DNA from: Brevundimonas abyssalis TAR-001
Lineage (GTDB): Bacteria; Pseudomonadota; Alphaproteobacteria; Caulobacterales; Caulobacteraceae
DNA length: 64,000 bases
Direction of reading: 5' to 3'
Assembly: GCF_000466985.1 (NCBI RefSeq)
Contig: NZ_BATC01000007.1
Coordinates: forward strand, 1-64,000
Shown here: piece by piece, positions 22,182-29,010 of the stretch
Layout: every line of letters starts with the position of its first letter
Numbering within the stretch: position 1 is the stretch's first letter
The notes under the pieces: generated by a model
The model's input: only the letters and a program-made list of their open reading frames with translations
The model's database searches: none
What the model was told of the DNA's origin: nothing
Made by a program: the position numbers and the translations under genes

Positions 22182-23018
22182 ATGGGCTGGCTGTTTTTAG
22201 CGCCTGCGTTGTTCGGAATCTGGAAGTATCGATACTTCGCCTATTGGCGTTGGGTGCTTTGGGTTGGCCTAACCCTCTACGTGTTCGCCGCTCTTTTTTG
22301 GTCGGGCGGAACTATGAATGATCCTACTGGGGACGGATTGATCACAGGCGCTATTCGACAAGCGAGCAACGATGGTCCCGAGGTTCTTTGGGGTCTTTTA
22401 GCGCTTGTACTCACGGTGGTGATTTGTGTGCTTCTGCTGAAGAGGGCGCATCGAACTACCAAGTCGCCTTACCCGGGTGGCGATGCGGCTAAGTCCGCCT
22501 CATGGCCACGTAAGCTGGCAGAAAGTGTCGGCCTAATAGCAGCAGTCTTCTTCGCAAATCTGCTCTTAGGGGGATTTCTGGCTTATACCCAAACGCAGTT
22601 CTATGAAGTGGGGCCTGATATCGTCCACCAAGACAGCTTTCTTTCTCATCTTGAGAGCGATGTTTTGTCGTCAGCAGCCCAAATAAACAGCAGCGTACCG
22701 ACGCAAATAGACGAAATAACGGTTCTAGAGAGAGCGAGCGCCGAGGGAACTACGCTTGTTTATCACTACAATATTGAAAGCAGCGCCTCACCGAGAGATA
22801 TTGAAGCAGCAATGGCTCCTCGTATTTTTCAAGGGGTTTGTTCGGACATCACCATGACTGCTGCGATGCGCGACGGCGCTTCCTTCCGATACGAGTACAC
22901 CAACACCCGAGCGGAATTGGCCTCAGTCGAAATTTCAGAATCGAACTGCCACCCAGAAATGCCGATCATTCCAAACGGAGCATCGGCTAGTTTAGCTCCG
23001 TCCCCAAATCATGAATAG
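22182..23018 (+). CDS. Orphan membrane protein with periplasmic two-cysteine domain, AT-richer than its surroundings
   Basis: 278 aa; ATG 22182 follows GGGGAGAGG. Three membrane segments (about residues 22-42, 68-86, 113-136), then a C-terminal periplasmic domain. That domain reads SSVPTQIDEITVLERASAEG, TLVYHYNIE, VCSDITMTAAMRDGASFRYE and ISESNCHPE: a V-P-x-x-V/I-D-x-x-T start, an alternating Y-x-Y strand and two Cys. The layout recalls a widespread uncharacterised bacterial periplasmic domain, not one I can name. Base and codon use (TTTAGC, AATATTGAAAGC) differs sharply from neighbours, so recent transfer is likely. Confidence 0.75.
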   Translation: MGWLFLAPALFGIWKYRYFAYWRWVLWVGLTLYVFAALFWSGGTMNDPTGDGLITGAIRQASNDGPEVLWGLLALVLTVVICVLLLKRAHRTTKSPYPGGDAAKSASWPRKLAESVGLIAAVFFANLLLGGFLAYTQTQFYEVGPDIVHQDSFLSHLESDVLSSAAQINSSVPTQIDEITVLERASAEGTTLVYHYNIESSASPRDIEAAMAPRIFQGVCSDITMTAAMRDGASFRYEYTNTRAELASVEISESNCHPEMPIIPNGASASLAPSPNHE

Positions 23019-23050: not shown

Positions 23051-23824
23051 CTAGCCGGCTCTGGAGAAGTCGGGCGCGCGCCTCTGGCTGAAGGCCATGA
23101 AGGCCTCCATGGCTTCGGGGCTCTTCATCTGGGCGCCGAACGCCTCGCCCTCGGCCAGCATCAGGGCCCAGATCGCCTCGGCGTCGCGCATCAGGCGCTT
23201 GGTCGAGCGGATGGAGTTGGGGGCCCGCGCCGCCAGCAGGGCCGCGAGGCGCCGGGCCTCCTCATCGACCTGACCGGCCGGAACCGCCCGGTTGGCCAGG
23301 CCCCAATCCAGCGCCTGACGCCCCGTGATGGGCTCGCCCAGGGCGAACAGTTCGAAGGCCCGCTGGTGGCCGATGACGGCGGGCAGCAGCGCCGTGGACG
23401 CCGCCTCCGGGGCCAGCGCCAGATTGACGAACGGAACCGACAGCAGGGCGTCGTCCGCCACCACCACCATGTCGCAGTGGAGCAGCAGGGTCAGACCGAT
23501 GCCCACCGCCCGGCCCCTCACCGCCGCCACGGCGGGGCGGTCCAGCTCGGCCAGGGCCTTCAGGAATCGGAACACCGACATGTCCAGCGGCTCATCGGTC
23601 TGCGACCCGATGGCGATGAAATCGCCGATGTCGTTGCCGGCGCAGAAGCTGTCGCCCTCGGCGCGGAACAGGATCACGCGCACGTCGGGATCGGTCTTCG
23701 CCCGCTCGGTGGCTTCGGCCAGCACCGTGTACATGGCCTGGGTGATGGCGTTCTTCTTGTCGGGCCGGGCCAGGGTGACGGTGAGCACGCCTTGCTCAAG
23801 CGCGACGTGAACATGCTCGCTCAT
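23051..23824 (-). CDS. Enoyl-CoA hydratase/isomerase family protein
   Basis: 257 aa. Crotonase-fold features: LARPDKKNAITQAMYTVLAE, FRAEGDSFCAGNDIGDF (oxyanion-hole strand) and AAVRGRAVGIGLTLLLHCDM. At the position of the hydratase Glu pair the sequence is SVPFVNLALAPEAASTALLP, with an acidic residue only at the second site, as in isomerase-like members. Acts on acyl-CoA esters; ATG 23824 overlaps the stop of the hydrolase gene upstream by ATGA. Confidence 0.88.
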   Translation of the reverse strand: MSEHVHVALEQGVLTVTLARPDKKNAITQAMYTVLAEATERAKTDPDVRVILFRAEGDSFCAGNDIGDFIAIGSQTDEPLDMSVFRFLKALAELDRPAVAAVRGRAVGIGLTLLLHCDMVVVADDALLSVPFVNLALAPEAASTALLPAVIGHQRAFELFALGEPITGRQALDWGLANRAVPAGQVDEEARRLAALLAARAPNSIRSTKRLMRDAEAIWALMLAEGEAFGAQMKSPEAMEAFMAFSQRRAPDFSRAG

Positions 23825-24915
23825 GCGGGTTCTCCAGTTTCGATTCGGGTCCACCAGTCCACGCCGTCCGCGTCGCGATCGCGGCCGATACGGCCCTGGG
23901 CCTCCAGATAGTTCAGGTGGGCGATGGCCTCGCCCGTGGCCATGCCCAGCACGCCCTCGCCAACCGCGCGGCCGAACAGGGAGGGAAAGACATCCACCGC
24001 CCGCTTCGGCTCGGCCAGGGTGCGCTCCAGCCGCCGCAGGGCCACGTCATGGCCGCGCAGCAGGGCCTCCAGCCGGGCGTGAGCGCCCCGGAAGGGTTCG
24101 CCGTGGGAAGGCAGCACCAGGGCGTTTTCGGGAATGCGGCCCTTCAGGGCCTCCAGCGAGTCCAGCCAGTCCTTCAGCGGATCCGACTGCGGCTCGGTCG
24201 GCCAGACCGAGATGTTGGACGAGATGCGCGGCAACAGCTGATCGCCCGAGATGAACAGGTCATCCCGCTCGCGCAGCAGACAGACGTGCTCCGGCGAGTG
24301 CCCCGTGCCGACGATGATGCGCCAGGCGTCGCCGTCGATCTCGATCCCGTCCCCGTCGCTGAGGCGGGTGAACTCCGGCGGCATGGGCCGCACCGCCTTG
24401 CCGAACATGCCGTAACGGGTGCGATAGCCCTCGATCTGTTCGTCCGACCAGCCGGCGGCGCGATAGAAGGCCGCGCCCGACTCCGGCGCCGGGCCGGTGT
24501 CGGCCAGCAGCATGCGCCCGGTCACATACTCCAGCCGCGACATGAACAGGGGCGCGCCCGACCGCTCGCACAGCCAGCCCGCCAGACCGATGTGGTCCGG
24601 GTGCATGTGGGTGCAGATCAGGCGGGTGACCGGCCGGCCTTCGAGCGGTCCGGCGAGGGCCGTCTCCCAGGCGTCGATGGTGTCCGGCAGGCCCAGTCCG
24701 GTGTCGACGATGACCCAGCCCTCGCCGTCGCGGATGGCCCAGACGTTCACATGGTCCAGCGCCATGGGCAGGGAGAAACGCAGCCACAGGACGCCCTCGG
24801 CGACCTGGACCGCCTCACCCGGCGCCGGGATGTCCAGCGCCGGATAGTCCGGCCCGGCCGCGCCCTTGCGGGGCTCCGGTGCATTGGCCTGGCCGTCGGG
24901 CAAGCGCGTCTCCAT
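23821..24915 (-). CDS. Metallo-beta-lactamase-fold hydrolase
   Basis: 364 aa from ATG 24915. The zinc motif THMHPDHIGLAGWL (HxHxDH), the GTGHSPEHVCLL histidine, FISGDQLLPRISSN and a C-terminal VLPSHGEPFRGAHARLEALL are complete. The long C-terminal helical part (IAHLNYLEAQGRI) resembles LACTB2-like or hydroxyacyl-hydrolase proteins. Coupled by ATGA to the enoyl-CoA hydratase gene, so a role with acyl thioesters is plausible. A start at 24966 would add a Cys-containing segment and cannot be ruled out. Confidence 0.85.
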   Translation of the reverse strand: METRLPDGQANAPEPRKGAAGPDYPALDIPAPGEAVQVAEGVLWLRFSLPMALDHVNVWAIRDGEGWVIVDTGLGLPDTIDAWETALAGPLEGRPVTRLICTHMHPDHIGLAGWLCERSGAPLFMSRLEYVTGRMLLADTGPAPESGAAFYRAAGWSDEQIEGYRTRYGMFGKAVRPMPPEFTRLSDGDGIEIDGDAWRIIVGTGHSPEHVCLLRERDDLFISGDQLLPRISSNISVWPTEPQSDPLKDWLDSLEALKGRIPENALVLPSHGEPFRGAHARLEALLRGHDVALRRLERTLAEPKRAVDVFPSLFGRAVGEGVLGMATGEAIAHLNYLEAQGRIGRDRDADGVDWWTRIETGEPA

Positions 24916-25068
24916 TAAAAACTCATTGCCACTTTGCCCTCCGCATGATCGCGCGTCAAAGGTCATCTGAGCGCCACAGACGGAACACATGCCGCCGTTA
25001 GGACTTGACCCAACAATCAGAGCGGGCGAAGCGTCCGCCAACGTGTAAAGCTAGGTGAGGATAGCCCT

Positions 25069-26481
25069 TTGAAGCTGCGTAATTCCCTGCTCGCCCGGTC
25101 CGCCGTCGTGCTGACCGTCGTCGGATTCAGCCCCCTTCCCGCCGCTGCGGCGGCGGACTCGGCCCCTATGGCCGGCGTCGCCACGACCGCCGCTGCGGCG
25201 GCCATGCAGTCCCGCACCCGTCGAGGGGCTCAGTCGCAGGCGGCGCCCGAAGTCCGCACCGGTCCCGAGGTTCTGGCCGAGGCCCAGGCGGTCGTGACCG
25301 CCACCAATACTGTCTGCGACGTCGTCAACGCCGTCAGCCCGGGCCGCAACGGCGATATCAACATCTACGAGGTCGCCTGCGCCACCGGCCTGGGCCACAT
25401 CCTCACCGACGGCGCACAGCCCGCGTCGCGGAACTGCATCATCGTCGCCCAGCAGGCCGAGGAATACGCGCTTGAAAACCCCGACGCGCCCGCCCAGGTG
25501 ACCTGCACCCTGCCCGAGAACGCCAACGCCGAACAGATCATGGCGGGCTACATCCAGTCCGCCGGCGTCACCTGCCAGGTGGACCAGACCCGCTGGGTCG
25601 GCCGCACGCAATCGGGCGAGGAACGCTACGAAGTCGGCTGCGCCGGCGTGGACGGTTACTGGCTTCGCGTGAACCCCGCCGGTGAATACCTGGATCGGCT
25701 GGAGTGCATCGAGGTCACGGCCGCGGGCGGCGAGTGCACCTTCACCACGAACGAAGAGCAGCTGGCCGGCTTCCAGGCGCGTTTCGCGTCGGTCGCGCCC
25801 CAGGCCTGCACGCCCGAAGCGGGCCGCTTCGTGGGCGCCAACGCGGATTTTCGCTTCTATGAAGTGAAGTGCAGCGAGGGCTTCGGCTTCATCGCCCAGA
25901 CCAACCCGGCCGGTGAACCGCAGGGCGCCCGTGACTGCAGCCGTCCCCAGCTCGTGCCCGGCGGCTGCACCCTGACCGACAGCGCGGCGGCCCAAGGCGC
26001 CGCTGCTGAGCAGCGGGCCGCCGCCCTGGCCCAGATCGGCCGCACCTGCTCGGTCAACGAAGAGCGCATCGTCGCGGTGGAGAGCCCGGCGGACGGATCT
26101 CCGGGCCGCGAAATCTACGAGTTCGAATGCGCCGATCAGCCTTTTGGCCTGACCGGCTTCTTCCCGGTCGCGGGCGGTTCGGGCGAGGTCGAGGCGTTCG
26201 ACTGTTTCACCATGGATGCGCGCGGTCTGGAGTGCCAGTTCGTCTCCCGTGACACGATCAGCAACGAGTTGACCCGCATGGTCACGGCCAGCCAGCGCAA
26301 CTGCAATGTGGTCGACTATCGCGTGGTCGCCCGTATGGCGAACCTCGAGGGCGACGTGGCCGAGGTCAAGTGCGACGACGGCCGCGGCTGGTTCGGCGAG
26401 TTCCCGGACGACCGTCAGGCCGCCGGGCAGTTGGTGCCCTGCGCCGCCGCCGCCCGTCAGGGCGACGAGTGCGTGCTGTAA
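25069..26481 (+). CDS. Secreted protein of five tandem four-cysteine repeats
   Basis: 470 aa from TTG 25069 (GAGG eight bases upstream; the signal peptide KLRNSLLARSAVVLTVVGF…AAAAA supports this start). After an Ala-rich linker come five modules of about 65-75 residues starting near residues 80, 175, 245, 325 and 405. Each has the same Cys order: TxC, then I/R-YEVxC, then xDC or xxC, then xxCxL/F. Examples: TCQVDQTRWVG, RYEVGCAGVDGYWLRVNP, RFYEVKCSEGFGFIAQTNP, EIYEFECADQPFGLTGFFP. Even Cys numbers suggest two disulfides per module. No known family recognised. Confidence 0.85.
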   Translation: MKLRNSLLARSAVVLTVVGFSPLPAAAAADSAPMAGVATTAAAAAMQSRTRRGAQSQAAPEVRTGPEVLAEAQAVVTATNTVCDVVNAVSPGRNGDINIYEVACATGLGHILTDGAQPASRNCIIVAQQAEEYALENPDAPAQVTCTLPENANAEQIMAGYIQSAGVTCQVDQTRWVGRTQSGEERYEVGCAGVDGYWLRVNPAGEYLDRLECIEVTAAGGECTFTTNEEQLAGFQARFASVAPQACTPEAGRFVGANADFRFYEVKCSEGFGFIAQTNPAGEPQGARDCSRPQLVPGGCTLTDSAAAQGAAAEQRAAALAQIGRTCSVNEERIVAVESPADGSPGREIYEFECADQPFGLTGFFPVAGGSGEVEAFDCFTMDARGLECQFVSRDTISNELTRMVTASQRNCNVVDYRVVARMANLEGDVAEVKCDDGRGWFGEFPDDRQAAGQLVPCAAAARQGDECVL

Positions 26482-26507
26482 GCTCCACCTCTCCATCCAA
26501 CGGAAAG

Positions 26508-26534
26508 GCCCGTCGCGCTCGCGGCGGGCTTTTT
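26508..26534 (+). terminator. Rho-independent terminator
   Basis: GCCCGTCGCG (26508-26517) pairs with CGCGGCGGGC (26520-26529), one G-T wobble, loop CT, followed by TTTTTCTTTT. It lies 26 bp after the stop of the cysteine-repeat gene. Confidence 0.9.
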
Positions 26535-26592
26535 CTTTTGCGCGGGTCCGCTGTGCGTTAGCGTGGCCCCGTCCTGAACCGCTGAGTCCCTG

Positions 26593-27395
26593 ATGCGCAT
26601 CGCCACCTGGAACGTGAACTCCGTCAACGCCCGCCTGCCCACCGTGCTGGACTGGTTCAGCGAGGCCCAGCCGGACGTGGCCTGCCTGCAGGAGATCAAG
26701 TGCGTGGACGAGAAGTTCCCGCGGGAGGCGTTCGAGGACCTGGGCTACAACGTCGAGACCCACGGCCAGAAAACCTACAACGGCGTGGCCCTGCTTTCGA
26801 AATTCCCCCTGTCCGATGTGCGGCGCGGCTTGCCCGGCGACGATTCGGACGATCAGGCCCGCTACATAGAGGCGCTGGTGGAGGCGCCGGCGCCGGTGCG
26901 GGTGGCGTCCATCTACCTGCCCAACGGCAATCCGCTGGGCACCGAGAAGTTCGACTACAAGCTGGCGTGGTTCGAGCGCCTCCGGCTGCACGCGTCGGAC
27001 CTGCTGACCCATGAGGAGGCCGTCGCCCTGTGCGGCGACTTCAACGTCATCCCCACGCCCGAGGACGCGAAGAACCCCGAGGCCTGGGTGACAGACGCCC
27101 TGTTTCAGCCCGAGAGCCGCGAGGCGTTCCGGGCCCTGAAATGGCTGGCTTCGCCGACAGCCACGAACTGGGTGATGAGCCGGCGGGGACCTGGACCTTC
27201 TGGGACTATCAGGCCGGAGCCTGGCGGCGGGACCACGGCATCCGCATCGACTTCGCCCTGCTGTCCGCCCTGGCGGCCGACCGCTTCCGGGGCATCGAGA
27301 CCCACCGCGACGCCCGCGACATGGAGAAGCCCAGCGATCACGTACCCGTCGTCGTCGATCTGGATCCGGAGCCGCCCGCGTGGTCGATGCGCTGA
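26593..27395 (+). CDS. xth: Exodeoxyribonuclease III; frameshifted near 27148
   Basis: Start MRIATWNVNSVNARLPTVLD at ATG 26593. Further family blocks: ACLQEIKCVDEKFP (catalytic Glu), HGQKTYNGVALLSK, VASIYLPNGNP, and CGDFNVIPTPEDAKNPEAW (Asp/Asn). At about 27148 the frame slips; the rest reads GFADSHELGDEPAGTWTFWD, YQAGAWRRDHGIRIDFALLS and KPSDHVPVVVDLD (catalytic His). Adding one G in TGGCTTC gives a full-length Xth of about 267 aa. AP endonuclease and 3'-5' exonuclease in base-excision repair. Its 3' end overlaps the next gene by 16 bases. Confidence 0.93.
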
Positions 27396-27891
27396 GGATC
27401 ATTCTGCTGGTGGCCCTGGCCGCCGCCGCCCTGACCACGGCGGGCCTGACCCTGGCCTGGTGGATGGAGCCCCGGCGGCGCCTGCACCGGGCCCTGGACA
27501 AGACCCTGGGCGGCTCGCCCGAGGTCGAGGCGGTCTCTCCCGCCGAAGGCGCGCCTGCGCCCTGGATTTCGACAGCGCACAGGCGGCCGTGCTGTGGGAT
27601 CGGGGCGCCAACGGCCTGGTCTATGACTTCGACGAGATCGACGGCGCCGAGATGATCGTGGACGGCCATGTGCTGGCCCGCGTGCGCCGGGGCGAGGCGC
27701 GCCGGGCGCTGGACGTGATGGCGCCGGACGCCGGTCAGGTGGTGCTGCGGCTGATGTTCGCCGACCCGCGCCATCCCGAATTCGAGCTGGACCTGTGGAA
27801 TGTCTCGACGGGGGCCTCGACCGGCTCACCGCCGGAAGCGCTCAGGCTGGGGCGCCGCTGGCTGTCTCATGTGGAAGCCCTGATGAAATAG
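27380..27891 (+). CDS. Membrane-anchored hypothetical protein; frameshifted near 27556
   Basis: GTG 27380 lies within the end of xth. N-terminal helix LRIILLVALAAAALTTAGLT (about residues 5-24), then a short basic stretch (EPRRRLHRALDKTLGG). From about 27556 the protein continues in another frame: ALDFDSAQAAVLWDRGANGL, VYDFDEIDGAEMIVDGHV, VVLRLMFADPRHPEFELDLW and a terminal RRWLSHVEALMK. One added base joins them to about 171 aa. The soluble half looks like a compact beta domain sensing or scaffolding at the membrane; no family name can be given. Confidence 0.7.
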
Positions 27892-28104: not shown

Positions 28105-29010
28105 GTGCCCCGCCTGTTCGACGCCTATGTCATCGCCAACTGGACCGCCGCCGAGGGCAAGAAGCTGGGCGAGCAGTCGCTGTGGATCGCCGTGGCCAAG
28201 CGCGACGTGCGCATGCGGCTGAAGGTCGAGACCCACAACGCCGCCACGCGCGCCGACGGCGAAAAGCTGCTGGCCGACATCCTGGGCGACCTGAACAAGC
28301 GCGGCGACCGGGCCCTGATCGGTCTGGACGCGCCGCTGGGCTTCCCCGTCGGCACGGCCGCCCGGCTGTCCCTGAAGGATCCGACCTGGTCCGGCCTGTG
28401 GGCCTTTCTGGCCGACAATGTGCGGGACAAGCCCGACAACACCAACAACCGCTATCAGGTGGCGGCCAAGATGAACCGGCTGATGACCGACGAGGCGCGG
28501 CCGTTCTGGGGCGCCCCGGCCAGTCAGGCCCAGCGCTGGCTGACCACCACCAAGCCCGAGGGCGGCTACGGCGACATCCCAGAACTGCGCGCCACCGAAG
28601 TCGCGGCCAAACAGGGCAAGCTGCAGCCCAAGACCGTGTGGCAGATGCACGGCGCGGGCGCGGTCGGCGGCCACGCCCTGATCGGCATTCCCACCGTGCG
28701 TCGCGTGGTTGAGCGGCTGGGGTCCGCCGCCGCCGTCTGGCCGTTCGGCACGGGCTGGCGCGCCTTGACGCCCGAGGACGTGGCGCCCCTGTCGGCGCTG
28801 GTGGTCGAGGTCTGGCCCGCCATGTTCGGCGGCGCGCCCGAACCGGGTGAGTTCAAGAGCCAGGCCCAGGTCCGCGTCGCCGCCGAGACCTTCGCGCGTA
28901 TGGACGAGAAGAACGAGCTGGCCGCCGCCTTCGCCCCGCCCAAGGGCGCGTCGGACGACCTGATCCGTCAGGTCGAGACGGAAGAAGGCTGGATCCTCGG
29001 CGTCCGTTAA
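28105..29010 (+). CDS. Conserved protein of unknown function (possible RNase H-fold, DUF429-like)
   Basis: 301 aa from GTG 28105. Starts with a strand carrying an early acidic residue (LFDAYVIANWTAAEGKKLGE), then RALIGLDAPLGFPVGTAARL, which resembles the I-D-x-P-x-G-F-P block of DUF429-type RNase H-like proteins. Later blocks: WQMHGAGAVGGHALIGIPTV and LVVEVWPAMFGG (a carboxylate in a Pro/Trp-rich strand). Alphaproteobacterial relatives are sometimes labelled as molybdopterin or cobalamin proteins without proof, as far as I recall. Its TAA overlaps the convergent MATE stop. Confidence 0.6.
   Translation: MPRLFDAYVIANWTAAEGKKLGEQSLWIAVAKRDVRMRLKVETHNAATRADGEKLLADILGDLNKRGDRALIGLDAPLGFPVGTAARLSLKDPTWSGLWAFLADNVRDKPDNTNNRYQVAAKMNRLMTDEARPFWGAPASQAQRWLTTTKPEGGYGDIPELRATEVAAKQGKLQPKTVWQMHGAGAVGGHALIGIPTVRRVVERLGSAAAVWPFGTGWRALTPEDVAPLSALVVEVWPAMFGGAPEPGEFKSQAQVRVAAETFARMDEKNELAAAFAPPKGASDDLIRQVETEEGWILGVR

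Follow-up and report, generated by a model that had tools for sequence, protein, structure and literature searches.

The window (the whole 64,000-nucleotide stretch of DNA analysed) carries on its plus strand a gene for a secreted-type protein that is comprised of a signal peptide and five cysteine-bearing modules. The gene lies between a divergent gene for a metallo-beta-lactamase-fold protein and a downstream exonuclease III-like gene. The features of the locus are as follows.

22182-23018: nearby open reading frame without a Pfam match
23821..25041, minus strand: metallo-beta-lactamase-fold protein, divergent neighbour (Pfam PF00753)
25053..25061, plus strand: ribosome-binding-like AGGTGAGGA, 7 nt 5' of the TTG, found by eye
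25069..26481, plus strand: five-module protein coding sequence, 470 aa, TTG start, TAA stop
25069..25152, plus strand: signal peptide, found by eye, cleavage point approximate
25315..25506, plus strand: module 1, Cys83-Cys146, with a longer C3-C4 stretch
25573..25737, plus strand: module 2, Cys169-Cys223
25807..25968, plus strand: module 3, Cys247-Cys300
26047..26235, plus strand: module 4, Cys327-Cys389, best matched by the position-4 profile of other genera (55.4 bits)
26302..26472, plus strand: module 5, Cys412-Cys468, best matched by the position-5 profile of other genera (49.5 bits)
26593..27395, plus strand: exonuclease III-like gene, downstream (Pfam PF03372, Exo_endo_phos)
28105-29010: nearby open reading frame without a Pfam match, found in 52 of 63 contig loci

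The coordinates, frame and TTG start given by the original prediction were confirmed by reading the open reading frame, and its signal peptide was recognized by eye, with an n-region (KLRNSLLAR) followed by a hydrophobic core and an Ala-rich cleavage region. By the same visual inspection, no lipobox Cys was seen in the signal peptide of the window protein or in those of its relatives (whose start codons were picked by a script rule before their export signals were judged), and no transmembrane segment was seen in the five-module protein. The metallo-beta-lactamase-fold gene probably has its real start near 24915. An antisense open frame of 907 aa (25051-27774, minus strand) spans both the module gene and the exonuclease gene and is most likely a G+C-rich shadow frame.

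The metallo-beta-lactamase-fold gene adjoins the module gene in 60 of 63 contig loci and in 14 of 20 loci from other genera, while the exonuclease III-like gene does so in 58/63 and 0/20, respectively; the other-genus loci span only about 3.2 kb each. Four wider stretches from other genera (L155-L158) contained the metallo-beta-lactamase-fold gene in two cases and an enoyl-CoA hydratase gene beyond it in three, and inspection of L155 and L158 by eye revealed no neighbour suggestive of a pathway. Neighbours vary between the genera examined. More than one module-bearing frame was found in 8 of the 63 loci, one of which (L110) is a single broken gene. In the window, the Exo_endo_phos match stops at residue 192 (about 27,170) and what would be the usual C-terminal part seems to be in a different frame. 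The gene thus seems to shift frame near this residue, through either a real frameshift or an assembly error. The corresponding frames of relatives seem uninterrupted.

Homology and conservation of the modules

The window protein contains exactly 20 Cys residues, all of them inside the modules and arranged as five sets of four. The first Cys of each module (residues 83, 169, 247, 327 and 412) recurs at a spacing of 78 to 86 aa, slightly larger than the modules of about 70 residues originally described. The Y/F-E-V/F-x-C core strand named in the same description is present in modules 1 to 4 (YEVAC, YEVGC, YEVKC and YEFEC), whereas module 5 (AEVKC) lacks the aromatic residue.

That the five modules are homologous and share one cysteine order, as the original prediction held, was borne out by two kinds of comparison. 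When modules were compared pairwise against shuffled sequences with the Cys residues kept in place, no more than 2 of 300 shuffles attained the real score for 5 of the 10 pairs, and 3 of 300 did so for a sixth; for the weaker pairs 1-2, 1-4, 2-5 and 3-4 the numbers were 33, 7, 70 and 68 of 300. Stronger evidence, and independent of these shuffles, is given by profiles of modules 1, 2 and 3 from 31 relatives, which were built without the window protein and each of which matched all five window modules (15/15 combinations). E was at most 4e-4 in 14 combinations and 0.03 in that of profile 3 with module 4 (5 sequences searched). Cys spacing hardly varies among the relatives except in module 1, where the C3-C4 stretch ranges from 10 to 40, and in module 2, whose C1-C2 stretch is shorter in one subgroup.

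We defined the family by the pattern C-x(n)-E-x2-C-x(n)-C-x(n)-C together with a module profile, and all five window modules agree with both; this profile includes the window and Brevundimonas modules, and window-free profiles match the window modules too. Among 25 five-module proteins, all 20 Cys residues and five Glu residues, each located three residues before the second Cys of its module, were invariant (25/25), and in the 127 frames with four Cys per module this Glu was found in 417 of 418 modules; since the Cys and Glu residues are part of the profile by which both sets were collected, these figures are biased upward. Conservation is otherwise even across the modules (the mean share of the commonest letter is 0.46-0.52, and none stands out much). 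The other residues conserved in at least 75% of the 25 proteins are mostly Gly, hydrophobic or small, and single conserved polar residues (N151, R253, D304, D378 and R418) are scattered over modules and links. Inspection of the 25 proteins by eye revealed no repeated catalytic-looking residue set. The net charge of the window protein is about -31, which makes it the most acidic of the 25, the other 24 ranging from -19 to +7. Since net charge is unconserved, it does not favour one charged ligand shared by the family.

The natural loss of a Cys pair was sought as a clue to disulfide pairing among 133 distinct module-bearing frames and was found only in truncated or broken ones. DsbA-like and DsbB-like genes are present in the same genome. 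These genes, the signal peptide and the occurrence of the cysteines in fours all agree with the earlier suggestion that the modules are linked by disulfides and lie in the periplasm or at the surface.

Searches of the window protein against Pfam and NCBIfam (E limit of 10, with matches above about 0.1 mostly filtered out) returned no family, no enzyme domain in either collection and no peptidoglycan-binding domain in Pfam. The statement that no named domain is recognizable therefore stands, and the clear match of all modules to a characterised domain family that was named as refuting it was not found. When 35 sequences (the window protein and 34 from Brevundimonas) were searched against Pfam, scattered weak names were obtained, the best with an E of 0.016. 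Ten proteins from other genera had no Pfam match at a limit of E 0.1 and, at the same limit, gave two NCBIfam names that were far below the cut-off. There was no Pfam match to BLIP or to cystatins in any of these sets, and none to the PepSY profile in the window protein or its relatives. Among the sequences of the PDB nothing convincing was found (the protein gave a single row, at E 0.78, and the module profile four, with E of at least 0.13). No title or opening of an abstract in the literature searched describes such a protein, and mention of an orthologue inside a paper or table is possible. Judged by these comparisons, the module is a true domain family that has neither a Pfam nor an NCBIfam entry.

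Distribution and ancestry

An initial search for relatives gave matches in 38 of 61 genomes: all 37 of Brevundimonas, counting the source genome, and 1 of the remaining 24. The single match outside Brevundimonas (G055, E 7e-4) was false, the frame having one Cys. With the module profile, matches were obtained in 295 of 299 genomes of a Caulobacteraceae sample, covering 22 of 22 genera, and in 266 of the 267 good-quality genomes. Three of the four genomes without a match (G123, G165 and G179) are 63-85% complete, and the fourth (G210) is 99% complete. The unannotated relatives within the family share with the window protein its architecture of a signal peptide plus modules, the cysteine order and the Y-E-V-x-C strand.

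Outside the family, matches were few. All 51 matching genomes of an order-level sample of 249 belong to the Caulobacteraceae, as do 4 of the 7 matches at E <= 0.01 in a class-level sample of 385 and 11 of the 13 in a phylum-level sample of 398. The other two phylum-level matches (G1140 and G926) were judged spurious by eye, each lying in a short frame overlapped by a longer one on the opposite strand. In the class-level sample, the matching frame of G872 resembles by eye the shadow of another gene, and that of G687 (E 0.006) has two stops within the matched stretch. The one outsider that looks real is G835, from another alphaproteobacterial family, with a 361-aa frame containing modules (L144:206-1267); none of four other genomes of its family carries a relative, so transfer, loss and contamination are all possible. 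The contig of G835 also bears hopanoid-type genes, as read from their translations.

From this distribution, the module protein seems to belong to the core of the Caulobacteraceae and to be almost confined to them. As relatives occur throughout that family but hardly ever outside it, the protein may be a signature component of the Caulobacteraceae cell envelope. A mobile or phage origin was considered and rejected: a scan of viral contigs found no relative, plasmid records gave no tblastn match, and the neighbours are kept across Brevundimonas loci. Among predicted viral structures, the best match to the module had an E of 0.03.

The number of modules differs between copies. Of the 20 genomes examined from outside Brevundimonas (15 genera), 19 encode five modules in a single frame and one (G075) encodes four, whereas most of the Brevundimonas copies retrieved have three and the window copy has five. 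The 133 frames, a convenience sample biased to Brevundimonas, comprise 99 with three modules, 25 with five, 5 with one, 3 with two and 1 with four. Counted from the first module on, four Cys per module are present in 127 of them. Of the six exceptions, L147, L062 and L160 (the gene of L144) arise where the cutting of the frame missed the first Cys, L142 lies at a contig edge, L049 has broken frames, and the divergent tail of L023 contains an additional Cys. Three single-module frames (L040:1376-1606, L040:1932-2162 and L048:1632-1862), which range from 162 to 247 aa, hold only the N-terminal region and module 1, and the two in L040 adjoin each other.

To place the window modules, position profiles were derived from the 19 five-module proteins of other genera. 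Modules 1 to 5 scored 49.1, 58.5, 55.9, 55.4 and 49.5 bits, respectively, against the profile of the same position. This was the best profile for modules 1, 3, 4 and 5, while module 2 scored 61.1 with position 3, so that positions 2 and 3 are tied for it. All five modules of L090, a five-module protein of Brevundimonas sp. UBA7664, likewise match the position profiles in order. A tree of modules 1-3 was built from 62 sequences: 37 three-module Brevundimonas proteins (thinned from 67 distinct ones), six five-module Brevundimonas proteins and 19 from other genera. In this tree, all 37 three-module proteins fall into a single clade (98/90), which sits inside the five-module proteins. The window protein is the sister of this clade, weakly (87/57), followed by L090 and the four other five-module Brevundimonas proteins; the proteins of other genera lie on the opposite side (95/99). 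On this branching and these profiles, the five-module form is the older and the three-module form is a derived state, and a recent amplification of modules in the window was therefore rejected. Most simply, the ancestral protein had five modules, and two of them were lost once within Brevundimonas. The identity of the lost pair is uncertain, because module 3 of the short forms splits among positions, with its best match to position 3 in 22 of 31 proteins, to position 5 in 5 and to position 2 in 4. In Brevundimonas sp. UBA7664, a three-module and a five-module gene lie in tandem between the usual neighbours (L090:5713-8220).

Predicted fold and candidate functions

The structure of the whole window protein was predicted with AlphaFold2 using 46 relatives (mean pLDDT 91.2, pTM 0.77); modules 4 and 5 were covered by only one relative, L090. 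Prediction of a single repeat, which had been proposed earlier as a check, was carried out for module 2 (25507-25764, with 66 other module sequences) and gave a pLDDT of 88.1 and a pTM of 0.77. Each predicted module has a helix, a four-stranded antiparallel sheet and, in most, a short helix, and helices join the modules in the whole-protein model. In the model of module 2, Cys1 precedes strand 1, the conserved Glu lies in strand 2, Cys2 ends strand 2, Cys3 begins the helix after strand 4, and Cys4 follows that helix. From this order of elements, the four Cys residues would lie toward one end of the sheet.

Structure searches with the single module gave at best a Foldseek E of 0.3 and a Z of 5.2. 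The matching chains include PepSY-like, BLIP-like, cystatin-like and kinase chains, all of them weak; as a Z below 8 may mean only a common arrangement, no fold family was assigned. The top Foldseek matches, 4poi and 4dsd (E 0.3), are presumably PepSY-like periplasmic proteins of Bacteroides, and 5boi (the YpeB C-terminal domain) was matched at a Z of 4.8. PepSY domains are small periplasmic alpha/beta domains that often occur in tandem; unlike them, the module lacks a match to the Pfam PepSY profile. BLIP is a secreted, sheet-bearing protein of alpha/beta domains with disulfides, and the BLIP-like 4fr9 was matched at a Foldseek E of 1.4 and a TMq of 0.43. BLIP is described as a tandem repeat (PMC8363833). 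The window protein differs in having five modules rather than two, in the four fixed Cys and one Glu of each module, and in the lack of a sequence match. The module and the cystatin fold both have one helix and a four-stranded antiparallel sheet, with no sequence match, and Z values of 4.4 to 5.1, below the level of trust, were obtained for chains that we take to be cystatin-like (4r80, a designed cystatin fold; Affimer/Adhiron scaffolds; and an amine oxidase N-terminal domain). The likeness of the predicted module to BLIP, PepSY and cystatin may be only a common arrangement.

Our best explanation, to which we give about even chances, is that the protein is a soluble, Sec-exported, periplasmic multivalent binding or scaffold protein built of disulfide-stapled alpha/beta modules. 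The signal peptide suggests that it would be exported via the Sec pathway to the periplasm. There, each module would probably acquire two internal disulfides formed by DsbA/DsbB after export, and the five tandem modules could then present similar domains to partners, by analogy with BLIP or multi-PepSY proteins. Given the lack of an enzyme domain or of a repeated catalytic-looking residue set, together with the export signal, the Dsb genes and the repetition of small modules, a role in multivalent binding or scaffolding is the most economical. Against it, the three-module Brevundimonas relatives listed manage without the extra two modules, and the genomic context gives no pathway.

The near universality of the protein in the Caulobacteraceae sample and the helices between its modules in the model would also suit a structural component of the envelope whose modules act as rigid spacers and which links the outer membrane, peptidoglycan or a surface layer. 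We consider this unlikely: neither a lipobox nor a transmembrane segment was evident by eye, Pfam gave no peptidoglycan-binding domain, and a module number that varies from 1 to 5 among the frames is odd for a fixed spacer. More doubtful is a multi-headed inhibitor in which each module blocks a protease or lytic enzyme located at or near the envelope, as tandem inhibitor domains do. The helix and four-stranded sheet of the module, and its weak matches to 4fr9, 4r80, the Affimer/Adhiron scaffolds and the amine oxidase N-terminal domain, point in this direction, but the structural matches do not exceed a Z of 5.1 or improve on an E of 0.3, Pfam gave no cystatin or BLIP match, and the most strongly shared residue other than Cys is a Glu inside a strand rather than in an exposed variable loop.

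It is very unlikely that the modules are the blades of a beta-propeller-like lectin or scaffold. Many of the best Foldseek matches of the whole model (E 2e-5 to 6e-4) are, as we recognize from their titles, propeller proteins, including fucose-binding lectins, and a second structure search gave blade-sized matches with a best Z of 5.6. However, the TM-score by query length of the Foldseek matches listed is 0.10-0.15 and their rmsd is 19-31 A, values that do not support a closed propeller as the overall arrangement, and a helix precedes the sheet in every predicted module. Least probable of all is a store or chaperone for a metal or small cation that binds through the near-invariant Glu of each module: there is one such Glu per module, no second acidic or His ligand is repeated in all modules, and a buried structural Glu would explain the conservation equally well.

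A broader reading is offered tentatively, as possible though clearly less probable than the multivalent binding or scaffold role. In it, the domain and its architecture arose with the Caulobacteraceae and were almost never lost, and a five-module, disulfide-stapled envelope protein, probably also present in Caulobacter crescentus, would perform an essential or near-essential job specific to the lineage by way of a single near-invariant Glu site in each module. Such a job might be, for instance, to keep the periplasm together or to police it. That an exported protein occurs in nearly every good-quality genome of the Caulobacteraceae sample and yet lacks a Pfam or NCBIfam model is a gap in the knowledge of a well-studied family. 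We infer that Caulobacter is among the 22 matched genera; if C. crescentus is included, the genetic tools already available for it would allow the role to be tested. Brevundimonas, in which two modules were apparently lost on one occasion, in turn offers a natural truncation experiment.
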